In this document: piece after piece, positions 2-34,443 of the stretch
Layout of the letters: each line of letters begins with the position of its first letter
Position numbering within the stretch: the stretch's first letter is position 1
DNA from: a virus
Length of the DNA: 34,443 nucleotides
Virus record (IMG/VR): IMGVR_UViG_3300030012_000353
Location: 1 to 34,443 of that record
Reading direction: 5' to 3' (one strand)
Translations under genes and position numbers: made by a program
The notes under the pieces: generated by a model
What the model was told of the DNA's origin: nothing
The model's input: the letters and a program-made list of their open reading frames with translations, nothing else
The model's database searches: none

Positions 2-13
2 TGCGAATTTACC
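2..13. repeat. Left copy of 12-bp terminal direct repeat (cos-like or circle overlap)
   Basis: TGCGAATTTACC at 2-13 is repeated exactly at 34432-34443, the last 12 bases of the window. Joining the ends gives a gap of about 100 bp between the gpZ-like gene (stop at 46) and the small terminase start (34376). In lambda-type phages cos lies just upstream of the small terminase gene. The repeat could be the cohesive overhang or the overlap left when a circular assembly was opened. The sequence alone cannot separate these. Confidence 0.6.
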
Positions 14-45: not shown

Positions 46-633
46 TTATTTAGCACTCCTAAGAGCCTTGTTGAAGGCTTCTACAAAGTTTTTATCAAAC
101 TTAGCTTGTGAGAACTTTTGTGCAATAACATAAAATGGAAATTTAATTTTATATGTAGCAGAATTTTTAAAAGCAACAATAAGTTTTAGTGTCCTGTCTT
201 TATGTGTTTCATAAACGCCAGTCATTCCCTTTATTGTCATAATCTTTTGGTTTTTCTTCTTTACTACACCACCTTTTTTATTTGGTATGTTGCCAAATTT
301 ATTTAGTTTTGCATTGCTAGTAGGTATAGCAAACTTTTTACCACTAGCTCTTACACCGCCTTCTATTTGGTAATGTAGGTAATCAGCTACTTCTTTTCTA
401 GCAAACAATGCGCCAAACAATTTAGATTTCTTTGCCTTTTCAATAAAGAATCCTCTTTGTGTAAATGGAGTTGGGTTATCTAATTTTTTAACAGTTTGCT
501 TTGCCATTTCTTTTTTTAGTTGAAACAAGGTTGTATTGATTGCGTTAGATGTTGCAAACGGTATCTGCTTTTTTTGAACAGATGTAGTCCACTTAGTTAC
601 TTCTTTTATGTTGTCTTTTACATTAACTTTCAT
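46..633 (-). CDS. gpZ-like tail completion protein (tentative)
   Basis: This 195-aa basic protein has no membrane segment. Residues 24-50 form an alanine- and lysine-rich helix (IPFATSNAINTTLFQLKKEM), followed by LDNPTPFTQRGFFIEKAKKS and a glycine-containing EGGVR segment, then a C-terminal helix. This layout and length resemble lambda gpZ (192 aa), which finishes the head-proximal tail end. The match is by pattern only, not by a strong motif. The start codon overlaps the upstream HTH gene by 11 nt. In a circular map it is immediately upstream of the terminase genes, so it can belong to the structural block although it seems to trail the replication genes. It could instead be another conserved structural protein. 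Confidence 0.45.
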   Translation of the reverse strand: MKVNVKDNIKEVTKWTTSVQKKQIPFATSNAINTTLFQLKKEMAKQTVKKLDNPTPFTQRGFFIEKAKKSKLFGALFARKEVADYLHYQIEGGVRASGKKFAIPTSNAKLNKFGNIPNKKGGVVKKKNQKIMTIKGMTGVYETHKDRTLKLIVAFKNSATYKIKFPFYVIAQKFSQAKFDKNFVEAFNKALRSAK

Positions 634-1913: not shown

Positions 1914-3827
1914 TTATTCAAATTTAGGCATTAATTTATTAAATTCTGCTGATTGATAACCAGCACCCTCTTCATGTATCACATAGCCTGTTTCTACTAA
2001 TTTTGGTAAATGAGTAGTTTTAATGCTATTTAATGACATTACGTTTCCATCTTTATCGCTTACTTTTCCTTCCAAATCAGAAGGCATAAGCCAAATATCT
2101 TGTGGATTTTCTTTATTTTGTAATATTGCTTCTCTCTCTACAGCGTCTAATACAAGTTGTCTCTTATAAGGTAATTGGTCTTTTTTAGTAAAATCTACAT
2201 CTGTTATTTCTAAATAACCGCTTGTAAGCTCTAATCCTTCACCTATTATTTCCACCTCTTTAAACTTAAACTTCTTCTCTTCCATGCCCTGACCATCTTT
2301 ATTTAGCGTTTGCTCAAATTTCACATACATTTCATCGTTTTTATCTGTTCTATCTACCATAAACTCATAATCTAGCGATGCACCTATAACACTTGAACCT
2401 CTACCTCTGCCTGAATTGTTGTGACCTGAATGATGTATTAAACATACACAACATCCATAATCGCTTATAAGACCATCTAATTGATTAATAAAGTTACCTA
2501 CATCTTCAGCACTATTCTCATTACCTACAAAGTTACGTTGAAACGTATCTATGACAATCATGCCAATCTGACCTTCCACCTCTTCTACAGCTTTTATTTC
2601 TTCCTCTAACTTAGCAAAATCATCTTTATCATTAATTCTTATAGCTCTGTCCGATAAATATAACGGTACTTTATTAAGGTCAAATACACTTTGTTGCCAG
2701 GCGGATAATCTACGCTTAACTCCTCTTTGACCTTCACCACATACATACAATACTGGTTTAGCATATGCCTTATTTCCATAAAACTCTTTACCTGCTGCAA
2801 TAGCACAACTCATAGCTATACCTATAAATGACTTACCTGATTTTGGACTACCAAAAATACACATAAGGCTTTCTTCCTCACATACGTCCTTTATAAGCCA
2901 TTTAGGGTTTGTAACTTGCTGTAATACCTCGTCTGCTCTTGTAAAAGTTACTGAACCTTTTGATTTAGGTAACACAAACTGCTCTATATACTGCTCTAAC
3001 GCCTTAGAATCCTCAAAATAATTACTTTCTTTAGCGTCCCATAAATCATCTTTATCGTTAAAATCTCTTGGTGGATAAACAACCTTAATGCTAGTGCATT
3101 TGCCTTTTAGTAGTTTCTCTAAATCATGCCCAAACTTCTTACCAGCTTCATCGTTATCACACCAAATTATTAAATCTCTATTGTGTAATTTTGACCAATC
3201 TTGTTTCTCTATTGCGTTTACTCCACCATGAAAACATGCTGAGTCATAAGCATAAATATCCTTACAACCCAACATTGCTTTTTCCCCTTCATTTAATATT
3301 ACTGGCTTATCTAAATGTTCTTCATTGCAAAATATAGGCAATAATCCTGTTGGTCTCGCCATAAACCATTCATTGCCCACTCTGTTAAAAGGTGCATATT
3401 TTTGTTTTATAGGATGCCCTTCAGGAAATCGCATAACAACAAAAGTATTGCTGTATTTAACTGCAACAATAGATTGCTTATATAGGTTTCTAACCTGTTC
3501 TGTAGAGAATGACCTCACATTGCTTTGTGCAACAACTAGGGGTTTGTTGCCATTCAGTAGGGAGTTATTACTGTTATTGGTCTGCAACGTGAGGTCGAAG
3601 CCATATTGTTTTAGTGTTTCAGCTACATTCTTGCCATGTTTTTCTAATAGCCACTTAACACCGCCACCTTCACCATCTTCAAAATCGTAAAATTGTGCGG
3701 TTTCTAAGTTAAATGTTAGTGAACCTTTATTACCCCATCGCCATTCATTAGACTTTTGGATATTTGGCTTACCTAATATTTGTATAGCTACTTCAGGTGC
3801 TATTTTTTGCCAGTCATTTTCGTGCAT
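1914..3827 (-). CDS. Toprim primase / RecA-like replicative helicase
   Basis: This 637-aa bifunctional replication protein carries an N-terminal GNKGSLTFNLETAQFYDFED region (about 32-51) like the entry domain of phage primases. A Toprim domain follows, with LNEGEK (E180, E182) and CDNDEAG (D224, D226). A RecA/RepA-type (AAA_25-like) ATPase has Walker A GSPKSGKS at 326-333 and Walker B MIVIDT at 423-428. LIHHSG (463-468) resembles the sensor region of RepA-like helicases. It should prime and unwind phage DNA. It lies 3 nt after the SSB-like gene and directly before the GAGTTAG repeats. No CHC2 zinc cysteines are visible. No phage DNA polymerase accompanies it. Confidence 0.88.
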   Translation of the reverse strand: MHENDWQKIAPEVAIQILGKPNIQKSNEWRWGNKGSLTFNLETAQFYDFEDGEGGGVKWLLEKHGKNVAETLKQYGFDLTLQTNNSNNSLLNGNKPLVVAQSNVRSFSTEQVRNLYKQSIVAVKYSNTFVVMRFPEGHPIKQKYAPFNRVGNEWFMARPTGLLPIFCNEEHLDKPVILNEGEKAMLGCKDIYAYDSACFHGGVNAIEKQDWSKLHNRDLIIWCDNDEAGKKFGHDLEKLLKGKCTSIKVVYPPRDFNDKDDLWDAKESNYFEDSKALEQYIEQFVLPKSKGSVTFTRADEVLQQVTNPKWLIKDVCEEESLMCIFGSPKSGKSFIGIAMSCAIAAGKEFYGNKAYAKPVLYVCGEGQRGVKRRLSAWQQSVFDLNKVPLYLSDRAIRINDKDDFAKLEEEIKAVEEVEGQIGMIVIDTFQRNFVGNENSAEDVGNFINQLDGLISDYGCCVCLIHHSGHNNSGRGRGSSVIGASLDYEFMVDRTDKNDEMYVKFEQTLNKDGQGMEEKKFKFKEVEIIGEGLELTSGYLEITDVDFTKKDQLPYKRQLVLDAVEREAILQNKENPQDIWLMPSDLEGKVSDKDGNVMSLNSIKTTHLPKLVETGYVIHEEGAGYQSAEFNKLMPKFE

Positions 3828-5567: not shown

Positions 5568-5762
5568 TTACATACTCTCTATTTGCGTTTGCCCTTCTTT
5601 TAATGCTTTATTTTCCAACTCAATTAATCTTGCTTTATGGTTGTATACGTTATCTCTTTTTTGTTTAACAACCGCTTCAGCTTCTTTCAACTCCTTTTCA
5701 GCAACCTCAATCCTTGTATGCTGTTCTATAATTTCACATGCAAAACTAAAAGGATTAGTCAT
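5568..5762 (-). CDS. Coiled-coil small protein, 64 aa
   Basis: The protein is nearly all one long charged helix from residue 8 to 58 (IIEQHTRIEVAEKELKEAEA, then VVKQKRDNVYNHKARLIELE), with a heptad-like pattern of a coiled coil. There is no membrane span and no family is recognised. Its ATG overlaps the end of the YqaJ-like nuclease gene by 8 nt (ATGACTAA), so it is translated with it. A partner of the nuclease, perhaps a recombination accessory, is possible but is inference from position only. Confidence 0.65.
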   Translation of the reverse strand: MTNPFSFACEIIEQHTRIEVAEKELKEAEAVVKQKRDNVYNHKARLIELENKALKEGQTQIESM

Positions 5763-6702
5763 TTCTAATCCTGGTAATTTTAGGTGTTTTTAATCTTATG
5801 CTTCTAGCTTCTTTAGCTGGTACTACCCTTTCTTTTGTTGCTTTATAGTTCCTGGTACCCCAATCAACCTTGTAGTCCTCTGACCTACCTTTAGAATGAT
5901 TGCCCATAGCAACCATAATGTTAGTCATTAATAAATCAGCAGTTTCTTCAGCCTGTTTAGCTACGCCTTTAAGGGTCAAATATTGGTCTATATCCTCTAC
6001 AGTACCTTCATCTAATATAAACACATTCTCTTCATCTTCTGCTTTATCAAATATCAAATAAGCATCTTCAGTACATTCAGGGATGTAATAATCCTCTTCT
6101 TCTACTCTTCTATCAAAATCCAATACCACCTCTTTTAGCTTGTTAGCAAAGTCTGCTTGTCTCTGATAAACATAAGTCCTTAAATCAGTTCCTTGCCATA
6201 ACACAATCAGAACACCGTACTCAGCATCTAATATCTCCATGCTACTCATAAGTTGTAATACACCTAACCACTCAGGCGGTTCATCTTTAGGAAATTCAGC
6301 AGTACATTTAACTTCAATAGGAATTTGTCCATTTAAAGTTAGTTTAGTTGCATGTGGTAAATAAATTCCTCTTTCTATGTCCTCTTCTATAGTTAAATTA
6401 TCAGCTTCAGCTAAACCATCTAAGGATGCTTCTAAAGGCAATAAAGGATGTTCTATTTTGTAATCTATTTCAGGATTGACATTAATTAATCCCAACCTAT
6501 CTGCAACTTCTACAATTAAGGGTTGCTCTAATAAGTCCCCTGTTCTTTGTCTATTAGTTTGTTTGTAATCATCTACATATACGCCATTCTTTTCATCTAT
6601 TGCCCTTTTTAAGCATTGCTGTTTGTTAAAGTATTTTGGAAAACCCATTAATGCACAAATAATAGAACTCGTTGCTTTAAACCATGTTAATTTACCAACC
6701 AT
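5755..6702 (-). CDS. YqaJ/lambda-exonuclease-like recombination nuclease
   Basis: This 315-aa PD-(D/E)XK nuclease has RTGDLLEQP (E59), LEASLDGLAE (D95), PIEVKC (E130, K132) and a glutamine in LGVLQLMSSMEIL (Q150), in the spacing of the YqaJ/lambda exonuclease family. These enzymes resect 5' ends of double-stranded DNA for single-strand annealing recombination. The C-terminal 120 residues are an extra, mostly helical region. AAAGGAG precedes the ATG at good spacing. No RecT/Beta annealing protein is recognised beside it; the SSB-like protein or one of the unknown small genes might serve. Confidence 0.85.
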   Translation of the reverse strand: MVGKLTWFKATSSIICALMGFPKYFNKQQCLKRAIDEKNGVYVDDYKQTNRQRTGDLLEQPLIVEVADRLGLINVNPEIDYKIEHPLLPLEASLDGLAEADNLTIEEDIERGIYLPHATKLTLNGQIPIEVKCTAEFPKDEPPEWLGVLQLMSSMEILDAEYGVLIVLWQGTDLRTYVYQRQADFANKLKEVVLDFDRRVEEEDYYIPECTEDAYLIFDKAEDEENVFILDEGTVEDIDQYLTLKGVAKQAEETADLLMTNIMVAMGNHSKGRSEDYKVDWGTRNYKATKERVVPAKEARSIRLKTPKITRIRND

Positions 6703-6703
6703 T

Positions 6704-7063
6704 TTAATTTCTCCTTTTATTAATAAGATTATTTATTTCATCTATTGATTCTCTTACGAGAATTGGAGTTGATAAATTACATACTTCTACACATACGCCC
6801 TGCTCGTCTTTATAAAACGATTTGATTTGATTAACAGATATGTCTAAACTATTAGGTGAACCTACTTTGTTAAGTCTAACAGTTCTTATAGGTTTAACTA
6901 ATTTATGTAATGAATCAGATAAATAGGTTGATTTGACGTTATATATATTATGCGAACCTATATGGTTCATAAAATTAAACTCTAATTGTTTTGTTTGATT
7001 CTTATGCGGTTTTGCATAAGTACCCTCTTTACAACTATTAGGTTTTTTATTTATAACTTTCAT
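6704..7063 (-). CDS. Hypothetical protein, 119 aa, with FlbD-like C-terminal pattern
   Basis: The first 60 residues are polar and look disordered (MKVINKKPNSCKEGTYAKPH). The second half reads TVRLNKVGSPNSLDISVNQI, then KSFYKDEQGVCVEVC and STPILVRESIDEINNLI. This RLN-VN-I-VRESxxEINNLI pattern is like the small beta-rich fold of FlbD-type proteins found in many phage genomes, where the function is unknown. The stop is one base from the nuclease ATG, which lies in the same operon. The family assignment is weak. Confidence 0.6.
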   Translation of the reverse strand: MKVINKKPNSCKEGTYAKPHKNQTKQLEFNFMNHIGSHNIYNVKSTYLSDSLHKLVKPIRTVRLNKVGSPNSLDISVNQIKSFYKDEQGVCVEVCNLSTPILVRESIDEINNLINKRRN

Positions 7064-7079
7064 ACTCTATCATGCCCAC

Positions 7080-7331
7080 TTATCTAGCGTTTTTATAATG
7101 CACACTATTATATTTATCACCATCTTGCTTATTAGCTATAGTTTTTAATTCATTATGAATAGTCCATATAGCCATTTGTGCAATAAATAATTTATTCATT
7201 TCAGAGTTTGGTGATTTATATATTTTTGCAAAGTCTTGTCCCAACTTGGTAAAAAGTTCAGCAGCATTTTTAATGTGCCTGGACTTTTCCATTGGTACTG
7301 TAATTCTTTTAGACCTTGTTTGATATGTCAT
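7080..7331 (-). CDS. Hypothetical protein, 83 aa
   Basis: A basic N-terminus (MTYQTRSKRITVPMEKSRHI) is followed by a mostly helical body (AELFTKLGQDFAKIYK, FIAQMAIWTIHNELKTI). The RxxRITVPMEKSRHIKNA start is reminiscent of small DNA-associated proteins, but I recognise no family. GGTGGAGAG at correct spacing supports the ATG. It follows an 87-nt gap after the winged-helix gene and begins the run of recombination genes, so it may be the first gene of a transcript. Confidence 0.6.
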   Translation of the reverse strand: MTYQTRSKRITVPMEKSRHIKNAAELFTKLGQDFAKIYKSPNSEMNKLFIAQMAIWTIHNELKTIANKQDGDKYNSVHYKNAR

Positions 7332-7418
7332 TATTAACTCTCCACCTCTTACTTTATTAAATTATTTTTGTATTGCAATAGGGTTTTTAAAATATGTGTA
7401 TAAAATACCCTCAATTAT
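7332..7418. other. 87-nt non-coding gap
   Basis: On the minus strand this gap holds GAGGGTATTTTATAC and, about 20 nt later, AAAACCCTA. The GGGT...ACCC arms could form an imperfect hairpin between the winged-helix gene and the next operon, but there is no T-run to call a terminator. No convincing promoter is visible; the ribosome-binding site GGTGGAG of the 83-aa gene is at its end. Confidence 0.4.
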
Positions 7419-7967
7419 TTACCCTAATTTTTTGCGGGTATTGGTTTCTAAAAACTCCATTTTCCCATCTGACATTTGTTTAGCTATTAAATCATAATGT
7501 TCTTTTTCATATTTATTAAAATAACTTGGTATACCTGTTGTTTTATATGCAGCATAAAAACCCTTTGACCAACTACCAAAAAATGTTTTTAAAACTGGTG
7601 AAGTCTCTAATAATGTTTTTAACATTCTTGATGATTGTATTTCATACATTCTAATTAACACTTTTGTTGGTTTTAATATATATACCCTAGCATCGTTAGC
7701 TAATCTTATTTTTTGTATTAGACCTGCTTTAATTAAAAATTTAATTTTTTTTCTAATTGTATTATCAGTCTCATTTAGTAGCTCTGATAATTCTGATATT
7801 GTTACTTGCCTATCATTTAGATATTCAACATAAACGTACTTATTTATAAATTCTGTTACACCATCTTGCTTAACATTTGCATTTTTGTAGAAATTTAATA
7901 TTTCTTTTTGAAATTGCACATGTACTGTATGTCCCTGTTTTACAAAATCTGCATAATCTATTTTCAT
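7419..7967 (-). CDS. Winged-helix DNA-binding protein, 182 aa
   Basis: Residues about 38-100 form a winged helix: TEFINKYVYVEYLNDRQVTI, the HTH SELSELLNETDNTIRKKIKF, then LIKAGLIQKIRLANDARVYI as the wing. This is the MarR/plasmid-Rep-like arrangement. The rest is helical (KVLIRMYEIQSSRMLKTLLE) and may dimerise. It starts 2 nt after the stop of the recombinase-like gene, so the two are co-translated. It is probably a transcription regulator of the early region; it could also be a replication-initiator-like protein. It has no similarity to CI repressors that I can see. Confidence 0.7.
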   Translation of the reverse strand: MKIDYADFVKQGHTVHVQFQKEILNFYKNANVKQDGVTEFINKYVYVEYLNDRQVTISELSELLNETDNTIRKKIKFLIKAGLIQKIRLANDARVYILKPTKVLIRMYEIQSSRMLKTLLETSPVLKTFFGSWSKGFYAAYKTTGIPSYFNKYEKEHYDLIAKQMSDGKMEFLETNTRKKLG

Positions 7968-7969
7968 AT

Positions 7970-8674
7970 TTATATCCCTAGCTTCTTAGCCTTTTTTAAA
8001 ATATTAGAAACACCTATTGGTGTCCACGTTTCCTTTCCAGTTCTAGTCAAAACCTTTTGTGCCATTAAAGCATCTGCTATTTGTTGTAGCGTAGCTTTTT
8101 CATGTATTCTGCTTTGAATTAATCTTATTCTTGGAATAATTTGCCTAACGTAATCATCTGCAAGTTCCCTTCTAGCTTTAGCTGCTAATAGTGTTGCGGT
8201 ATTTAAATTCTTTTTATTACCAGGTTGCCAACCGCTTTTCATTTTTTTAGCAATACTTTTCTTTATGTCTTTGCCTATATCTTTGCTACGGTCAAATGCT
8301 TGTAACATCATTTGTAACGTACCGTACTTATAACAAGCAACCACCCTATTCACCTCTCTTATAGCTGTAACAGTACTTTTACTACCATCTATCCTATTAA
8401 ATATTTCACAAGCTGTAAGGTTTCTAGCTAAATGCGATATATTTGGTACTAACAATTGCGCTCCTCTTTCATTGCATGATGCTACTGCTTTTTCTAATTC
8501 AGGTTTATAATTCCTTCTCACGCTTGTTTCTATATATTCGTCTATCACTTTTGCCCTAGTATCAATTGCTTTTTCTATAAGCAGTCTTGCTCTGTTGGTC
8601 TCTTTTTTTGATTTAATGTATGTAATATATTTACCTCTAGGAATAATCCTTGCTTTTAATATATCTTGGTTCAT
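7970..8674 (-). CDS. Serine recombinase-like protein with altered active site
   Basis: From ATG 8674 the product is 234 aa; GAGGAG lies 7 nt upstream, better than the GTG at 8689. The fold pattern of a resolvase/invertase is present: YITYIKSK strand, ETSVRRNYKPELEKAVASC, then AQLLVPNISHLARNL, then LQAFDR and a DNA-binding C-terminal part (TLQQIADALMAQKVLTRTGK). The key residues are changed: the usual YxRVS is YIKSK, RPxL is KPEL, and DRLxR is SHLAR (R84 kept). It may be inactive, or a divergent enzyme. It precedes a winged-helix gene and follows AT-rich repeats. Confidence 0.72.
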   Translation of the reverse strand: MNQDILKARIIPRGKYITYIKSKKETNRARLLIEKAIDTRAKVIDEYIETSVRRNYKPELEKAVASCNERGAQLLVPNISHLARNLTACEIFNRIDGSKSTVTAIREVNRVVACYKYGTLQMMLQAFDRSKDIGKDIKKSIAKKMKSGWQPGNKKNLNTATLLAAKARRELADDYVRQIIPRIRLIQSRIHEKATLQQIADALMAQKVLTRTGKETWTPIGVSNILKKAKKLGI

Positions 8675-8778
8675 TTGGTCTCTCCTCACTCCGTCTGCAT
8701 AGAGTGTTTATAATTATCATTCATACAATATATATAAAAATATATATAAATACAAATATCATACTTTTATACTTATAA
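8675..8778. other. 104-nt non-coding region with direct repeats and AT symmetry
   Basis: This gap lies upstream of the recombinase-like gene. TTATAATTATC occurs at 8708-8718 and, overlapping the end of the small membrane-protein gene, at 8773-8783. Between them is TATATATA-AAAA-TATATATA (8729-8748) and the 15-mer TCATACTTTTATACT (8759-8773), which also covers the start of the ribbon-helix-helix gene (5451-5465). It could hold operators or a recombination site, as well as a promoter. Confidence 0.5.
8727..8755 (-). promoter_or_regulatory. Weak predicted promoter of the recombinase-like gene
   Basis: On the minus strand TTGTAT (8755-8750) and TATATT (8732-8727) are separated by 17 nt. The -10 box has 5/6 and the -35 box 4/6 consensus bases. 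A TATAAAAGTA copy (8762-8771) lies just upstream. Alternating AT sequence makes this call uncertain. Confidence 0.35.
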
Positions 8779-8943
8779 TTATCTTACGGTCTTTTTGTTG
8801 TAAATTAATCTAGTATCAAAGTTAGGTTTTACCCACATATTCCTTCTTTTTCTAAATGCCATCCATAATATTAATGAATTATATGCATGCCTTAAAAGTA
8901 TGAAGGTTATAAAACCTAGTATAAAAAATAATAAATTAGTCAT
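8779..8943 (-). CDS. Small single-span membrane protein, 54 aa
   Basis: ATG 8943 shares a base with the stop of the preceding gene (TAATG) and has AAAGGAGAG at 7-8 nt. The product is MTNLLFFILGFITFILLRHA, then YNSLILWMAFRKRRNMWVKP and a basic tail. The first 17 residues are strongly hydrophobic, and FRKRRN would stay in the cytoplasm. No cleavable signal is evident. The function is unknown; small inner-membrane proteins in early phage operons often modify the host or exclude other phages, but nothing here shows that. Confidence 0.65.
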   Translation of the reverse strand: MTNLLFFILGFITFILLRHAYNSLILWMAFRKRRNMWVKPNFDTRLIYNKKTVR

Positions 8944-10252: not shown

Positions 10253-10528
10253 TTAATCATTTTTTTTTGTAGCTTCTATTTCTGTTTTAAGAATTAATAC
10301 TTCTTTTTCTAATCCTATAACTTGTTTTTCTAATGTTCTTATATCAGGAAAAATATAATTATTTTGATTACCTCTTAAATTTTTTAATTCTTGTTTATTT
10401 TTTTCTATTTTTTCTGCAATACTTGCATAACCCCAAACAGCTATCGATATTACAGTTATGATTTGTATAAGATAGCTTAGTGAAATATGTAAAATAGATT
10501 TATCGTCAATTTTAGCTAAATCACTCAT
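10253..10528 (-). CDS. Membrane-anchored coiled-coil lysis protein, 91 aa
   Basis: One transmembrane helix (about 13-35, ILHISLSYLIQIITVISIAV) is followed by a long coiled coil (about 40-90, IAEKIEKNKQELKNLR and LEKQVIGLEKEVLILKTEIE). This is the topology of an i-spanin (Rz type) or of a small holin-associated protein. Its start overlaps the holin stop by 4 nt (ATGA), and the lysozyme follows 24 nt later. No lipoprotein partner (o-spanin) was found in or beside it, so the spanin reading is tentative. Confidence 0.6.
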   Translation of the reverse strand: MSDLAKIDDKSILHISLSYLIQIITVISIAVWGYASIAEKIEKNKQELKNLRGNQNNYIFPDIRTLEKQVIGLEKEVLILKTEIEATKKND

Positions 10529-10896
10529 TTTCCAACGCCTTTTACCCGTTCAAATGACCTTAACCCACCTAAACCTAGCATACCCATAAGCACGGGTAAC
10601 ATAACTGAGGTATCTGCTTGTGGTATATCAATACCAAAAGGTGTAGCTAATGGACTAATTAAAAAATTTACTGCAAAACCAGCAACACATATCCAGGCTG
10701 TAGCTGGTCGCCAAGATGATTGAAACCAATTACCTTTAGCTTCTTCCTTATTTACTTCTATTTGTGCTTTGGCAATTTCGTGAATATGCTTTTCCGACAT
10801 GGTAGCTATTTCATGTGCTATCTTCTGCTTAATATCAGCATCGGGAATAAACTTATCCAGTATTTTAGATACTGGTTGTATTAGTTTTTCCAACAT
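10525..10896 (-). CDS. 3TM-type holin
   Basis: The 123-aa protein has an amphipathic N-terminal half (ILDKFIPDADIKQKIAHEIA) with a basic NWFQSSWRPATAW block. Hydrophobic segments follow at about 66-90 (ICVAGFAVNFLISPLATPFG) and 96-114 (VMLPVLMGMLGLGGL). NWFxSSWRPxxAW before the membrane segments is characteristic of the holin family also found in alphaproteobacterial gene transfer agents (GTA_holin_3TM). It makes the membrane lesion that releases the lysozyme. Neighbouring lysis genes on both sides support the call. Confidence 0.85.
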   Translation of the reverse strand: MLEKLIQPVSKILDKFIPDADIKQKIAHEIATMSEKHIHEIAKAQIEVNKEEAKGNWFQSSWRPATAWICVAGFAVNFLISPLATPFGIDIPQADTSVMLPVLMGMLGLGGLRSFERVKGVGK

Positions 10897-34431: not shown

Positions 34432-34443
34432 TGCGAATTTACC
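34432..34443. repeat. Right copy of 12-bp terminal direct repeat
   Basis: This is the exact partner of the repeat at 2-13. It lies 56 bp upstream of the small terminase start codon, the expected place for a cos site in a phage with a Nu1/GpA-type terminase. The 14-mer GGTGCGAATTTACC has GGT/ACC symmetry only at its outer ends, and a few bases away is a GC-richer patch (ACTGCGG) in otherwise AT-rich DNA. Confidence 0.6.

Follow-up and report, generated by a model that had tools for sequence, protein, structure and literature searches.

The analysed stretch of DNA (hereafter the window), a virus record of 34,443 bp, comes from a tailed phage of lambda-like type and has a G+C content of 33%. Its TerL is 48-50% identical to those of the Roseobacter phages CRP-406, CRP-811, and CRP-821, and the order of modules is the same in all four. 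The 12-mer TGCGAATTTACC is common to both ends of the window (2-13 and 34432-34443), so that the record, labelled linear in IMG/VR, may represent almost all of a genome that is circular or circularly permuted; its GC skew gave no origin signal. Read leftwards, a cassette on the minus strand encodes a degenerate serine recombinase, a winged-helix protein, an 83-aa and a 119-aa product, and a RecE-like exonuclease, followed by a member of a Holliday-junction nuclease family, an SSB-like protein, and a helicase-primase. The features concerned are:

5755-6702, minus strand: RecE-like exonuclease, the landmark of the slot in phages with active recombinases
6704-7063, minus strand: 119-aa ORF, fourth gene of the cassette
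7080-7331, minus strand: 83-aa ORF, directly downstream of the dyad and always third in the cassette
7405-7441, minus strand: 37-bp dyad ATACCCGCAAAAAATTAGGGTAAATAATTGAGGGTAT, overlapping the stop codon of the winged-helix gene, one copy per genome
7419-7967, minus strand: winged-helix (MarR/SarA-like) protein of 182 aa, starting 2 nt after the recombinase stop
7970-8674, minus strand: small serine recombinase homologue without catalytic residues, 234 aa from ATG (Pfam, alignment, and model)
8727-8755, minus strand: promoter-like TTGTAT-N17-TATATT upstream of the recombinase gene, conserved across loci

An alternative GTG start would extend the recombinase ORF to 239 aa (7970-8689). In this longer numbering, two Pfam families were matched just over the cut-off, namely Resolvase (residues 29-112, E 3.1e-5) and Recombinase (PF07508, residues 188-234, E 2.6e-4), and a profile-profile comparison with active plasmid recombinases of Rhodobacterales aligned 185 columns with a probability of 99.2 and an E-value of 8e-20. 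The AlphaFold model obtained from a 49-sequence alignment adopts the recombinase fold with a mean pLDDT of 94.0 and a pTM of 0.68; because active relatives were included in that alignment, the model indicates that the sequence is compatible with this fold and does not prove it independently. This alignment was used in place of one with four close homologues only, the model from which (pLDDT 42) was discarded. Foldseek searches of the PDB returned only serine integrases below an E-value of 0.001, and the top match in VIA-align was 3guv, a resolvase-family recombinase (Z 8.1 over 131 residues), followed by 6dgc, 9dxd, 3g13, and 4bqq. With both domains homologous and the resolvase fold modelled, the window protein belongs by descent to the serine recombinase superfamily. 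The earlier note had described a recombinase that lost its catalytic residues and retained the fold and the DNA-binding part, a description borne out by the Pfam and profile matches, the model, and an alignment of 17 members.

Alignment with intact relatives places K21, K23, K57, S80, H81, and R84 (234-aa numbering) at the positions of R8, S10, R45, D67, R68, and R71 of gamma-delta resolvase, so that of the residues on which a working serine recombinase depends R71 alone is retained. The motifs YIKSK, KPEL, and SHLAR, read in the earlier note against YxRVS, RPxL, and DRLxR, are all three correct. The loop after the Ser10 position is also shorter than in intact relatives, and the helix-E signature E..E...IS.RTK of active relatives is lost. 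Ser22, previously suspected of being the nucleophile shifted by one position, falls opposite Val9 in the alignment and is replaced by Asn in L014, whereas the residue that truly corresponds to Ser10 is variable; the structure prediction proposed as a check reproduced the fold, and a normal active site with Ser22 is not supported by the alignment.

About 30 further phage contigs encode the same degenerate protein, with identities to that of the window of 43-100%. Relatives were collected as seven loci in a first profile scan, 24 contigs in a second, and six more via the winged-helix gene. All of them are metagenomic and several contigs are fragments; no relatives of the dead form were found among phage isolates, where matches to it are weak. 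Across the 17 aligned members, the Ser10 position is occupied by K/T/S/I/E/A, the D67 position by S/G/D, and the R68 position by H/Y/A, and the catalytic residues other than R71 are replaced in every member, with the exceptions of Ser10 in L108 and Asp67 in L014. Lys21, Lys57, and Arg84 are invariant in all 17. This pattern indicates that the catalytic site is not kept as such, in contrast to three basic residues that surround the former phosphate pocket. Of the invariant positions, 20 fall within the last 44 residues, comparable conservation elsewhere being confined to the short first strand, and helix E is the least conserved element with a mean entropy of 1.59. The dN/dS of the gene is 0.017 relative to L001 (dS 0.11) and 0.10 relative to L004, low values that show strong purifying selection and a gene that is not decaying. 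The seven degenerate sequences available for a 93-row tree group together there in a single clade (100/100) with a long stem (2.8), which places the predicted loss of strand-exchange chemistry as a single event in one clade of marine phages. The whole cassette is absent from L006, a close relative, and from the CRP phages.

Related phages fill the same slot in other ways. Eighty viral contigs carry active-type relatives, in which DRLxR is present without exception and YxRVS in 79, and close to 50 of these contigs encode a RecE-like exonuclease, around 30% identical to that of the window, shortly downstream on the same strand. A bare C-terminal domain of 75-100 aa, without the catalytic domain, occupies the slot in another seven contigs; these share 41% identity with the window in the helicase and about 31% in the exonuclease. 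These stand-alone domains match PF07508 just over the cut-off and, weakly and below the cut-off, the recombinase-like helix-turn-helix family HTH_62 (PF20552); the window protein differs from them in keeping its dead catalytic domain. The domain tree leaves both orders possible, namely truncation to the C-terminal domain after catalytic loss or independently of it. Since the DNA-binding domain survives in every state of the slot, DNA binding would seem to be what is kept, and this is the main argument for the function proposed below.

Small serine recombinases of Rhodobacterales with a short PF07508 domain, such as WP_028720573 of Paracoccus yeei pLM20P5, are collinear with the window protein, which departs from them in the replacement of R8, S10, R45, D67, and R68, in the post-Ser10 loop, and in helix E. 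Active phage homologues share with the window protein the position upstream of a RecE-like exonuclease; the window locus, unlike those with active recombinases, has a winged-helix gene in between. On plasmids and plasmid-like contigs of Rhodobacterales (L017 at 2007-3529, L019 at the plasmid start, L074, and L081), an active small serine recombinase is located directly before the replication initiator RPA, and in several of these contigs the two genes overlap by 4 nt.

The gene order of the cassette is fixed down to 43-44% recombinase identity. The product of ORF 6704-7063 and its homologues keep a peptide, QL(E/S)(F/L)xF, with the variants QLEFNF, QLEFDF, QLELNF, QLSLFF, and QLELFF, which resembles the bacterial sliding-clamp binding motif. 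The promoter-like sequence at 8727-8755 is accompanied by a leader resembling ATGTTAATTATAA. Similar sequences are also seen in front of further early genes, among them those of the recombinase-less L006, and this promoter looks like a general early type of these phages rather than one specific to the recombinase. Repeats at 8.7 kb had been put forward in the earlier note as a target for a DNA-binding test; two AT-rich 15-mers, 87% alike, do exist near 8.73 kb, but they lie inside the conserved promoter region and form no repeat array. As an operator they were rejected, being part of the promoter type that stands before other early genes as well. A conserved 54-aa membrane-like ORF (MTNLLFFILGFITF...; window 8779-8943, minus strand) precedes the recombinase gene and is also present in the cassette-less L006.

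Of the 23 loci that reach beyond the recombinase gene, 22 have the winged-helix gene next to it, which supports the pairing (at a distance of 2 nt in the window) pointed out previously. The exception is L108, which has the recombinase without the winged-helix gene, and the two are thus not an obligate pair. The winged-helix protein of the window is 52% identical to those of L003 and L001, most flanking genes being 94-100% identical, and in the comparison with L003 the divergent stretch coincides with the gene. The only other matched genes that diverge strongly between the window and L003 are a tail gene (67%, window 46-633) and a holin-like gene (36%, window 10525-10896). The invariant residues N69, R72, K74, D92, and R94 of the winged-helix protein map to its helix-turn-helix and wing; among protein families, regulators of the MarR/SarA type match it best, though weakly in every case. 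The recombinase-RPA operons of plasmids had suggested that it might be an RPA plasmid initiator; profiles lent this identity no support, with no Pfam match and an hhalign probability of 0.3% for PF10134/RPA against a two-sequence profile. Iterons were searched for in and near the gene and not found.

The dyad at the 3′ end of the winged-helix gene, with the consensus ATACCCTCAAAAAATTAGGCTAAATGTTTGAGGGTAA across loci, is present once per genome in all 20 winged-helix loci scanned. The scanning matrix was built from nine loci, and ten loci outside it score 22-52 bits, as against at most 13.5 bits in L108, in L006, in three of the CRP phages, and in phages whose recombinase is active or truncated. 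The dyad DNA is read in another frame in L014, and its codons in the window are rare (ACC, 7% of Thr; CGC, 1% of Arg; GGG, 4% of Gly), which together indicate that selection acts on the DNA itself. Its outer arms pair in 79% of cells with 0 compensatory changes; this absence speaks against an RNA hairpin and is what would be expected of a protein-binding DNA site. Judging from L108, the dyad is tied to the winged-helix gene and not to the recombinase, with the caveat that the two overlap and that loss of the gene would remove part of the dyad too. Downstream of the dyad, a promoter-like TTGTAT/TATATT pair is found in many winged-helix loci. In L108, where both the winged-helix gene and the dyad are absent, the downstream promoter has a perfect TTGACA, a single case that is suggestive of activation of this promoter by the winged-helix protein.

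Both genes had been proposed in the earlier note to replace a CI/Cro switch, a view that the type of phage speaks against. Tyrosine integrases (PF00589 matches) were found in none of the 14 phage records including the window, several of which are fragments, and the only intact serine recombinases were those of three other phages (L131, L135, and L136). Nearly all members of the nearest cultured family, the CRP-822-type phages, are reported to lack an integrase gene, which suggests that their cycle is strictly lytic (PMC12629253). This makes a lysogeny switch unlikely, and the genes are better seen in the context of early transcription or replication control.

The reading that we judge just about probable is that a recombinase has become a non-cutting DNA-binding component of early-operon control in a lytic programme. 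The gene descends from a small serine recombinase of the kind that in many environmental phages stands immediately before a RecE-like exonuclease gene. The dead protein, whose gene heads the cassette, would hold DNA as a dimer through its C-terminal recombinase domain, perhaps with an additional contact through the basic pocket of Lys21, Lys57, and Arg84 left from the active site, and like the earlier note we infer that it regulates, in this case by contributing to the control or organisation of the early operon for replication and recombination. The dyad, which lies at the 3′ end of the winged-helix gene, is more likely bound by the protein which that gene encodes; from there, it would control, and probably activate, the promoter of ORFs 7080 and 6704 and then of the exonuclease. 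The system would serve the lytic programme, not lysogeny. Against this stand L006 and the CRP phages, which do without the cassette, the general appearance of the promoter before the recombinase, and the association of the dyad with the winged-helix gene, which leaves the dead recombinase no assigned operator; purifying selection would also fit a role other than DNA binding, such as that of a protein-protein inhibitor. A wider proposal, offered tentatively as plausible and still short of probable, is that catalysis was lost within one slot of a module widespread among marine phages in two forms, a full-length dead protein accompanied by a winged-helix partner and a bare DNA-binding domain. Both would regulate early transcription or replication without enzymatic activity, in phages that are strictly lytic, and would be the serine-recombinase equivalent of MrpR in a setting other than lysogeny.

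The same cassette could alternatively mark a replication origin, with the dead recombinase as architectural factor and the winged-helix protein as initiator or helicase loader in one initiator complex, and with the dyad as part of the origin. The cassette does head an operon of an exonuclease, a Holliday-junction nuclease, an SSB-like protein, and a helicase-primase; the winged-helix protein has weak matches to PHROG families of DnaD-like helicase loaders and of replication initiation, with DnaD_N in one member, and both the plasmid position of active homologues directly before RPA and the clamp-motif-like peptide in ORF 6704 homologues point the same way. However, the RPA comparison gave no support and MarR/SarA-type matches are better, the dyad is single and iterons are lacking, and L108 keeps the rest of the cassette without the winged-helix gene and the dyad, which makes an origin an unlikely explanation. 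Still less probable is a decoy subunit that would enter mixed dimers or tetramers and thereby block the active serine recombinases encoded by plasmids of the host or by rival phages. The retained fold and the abundance of active homologues on Rhodobacterales plasmids and phages would suit such a role, but conservation is lowest in helix E, through which active enzymes dimerise, and the DNA-binding end is among the most conserved parts, and the stand-alone DNA-binding domains in the slot would be left unexplained.

That the protein still recombines DNA through unusual residues such as Ser22 appears very improbable. All members keep a positive charge at the R8, R45, and R71 positions as K, K, and R, yet neither Ser22 nor the Ser10 position offers a conserved nucleophile, and D67 and R68 are lost. 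Decay of a functionless gene, to which the absence of the cassette from some relatives might point, is the least credible account: the ORF is open in about 30 contigs, gene order is held to the lowest identities sampled, and the dN/dS values refute it, barring strong sampling bias.

Only isolated examples are known of recombinases that have become regulators. MrpR (YopR) of the Bacillus prophage SPbeta has a tyrosine recombinase fold, has lost recombination, and is now a DNA-binding master repressor, which binds repeated elements across the prophage genome and maintains lysogeny (PMC10516654). It resembles the window protein as a phage recombinase fold without recombination, DNA binding being established for MrpR and predicted for the window protein; it differs in the tyrosine fold and lysogeny, and probably in the repeated operators, as against a serine fold, no sign of lysogeny, and a conserved dyad present only once in the window. 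The vaccinia virus F16 protein, described as a predicted inactive serine recombinase targeted to nucleoli (Senkevich 2011, cited in PMC11980589), is by that description likewise a viral serine recombinase homologue without catalytic residues, from a eukaryotic virus. A literature search for inactive serine recombinases acting as regulators, in which subscription journals were thinly covered, yielded only these two as relevant. The present case is like both in principle and belongs to neither, since fold, host, or probably operator pattern differ. The module comes from marine phages whose early gene control is little understood, and the dyad provides a concrete DNA target for binding. Moreover, related phages carry an active enzyme, a dead full-length protein, or only the DNA-binding domain at this one position, which opens the transition itself to study. 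A separate group of phage recombinases (L131 and L135-L139) keeps R8, S10, R45, R68, and R71 and has Ser in place of Asp67 (SRLGR).
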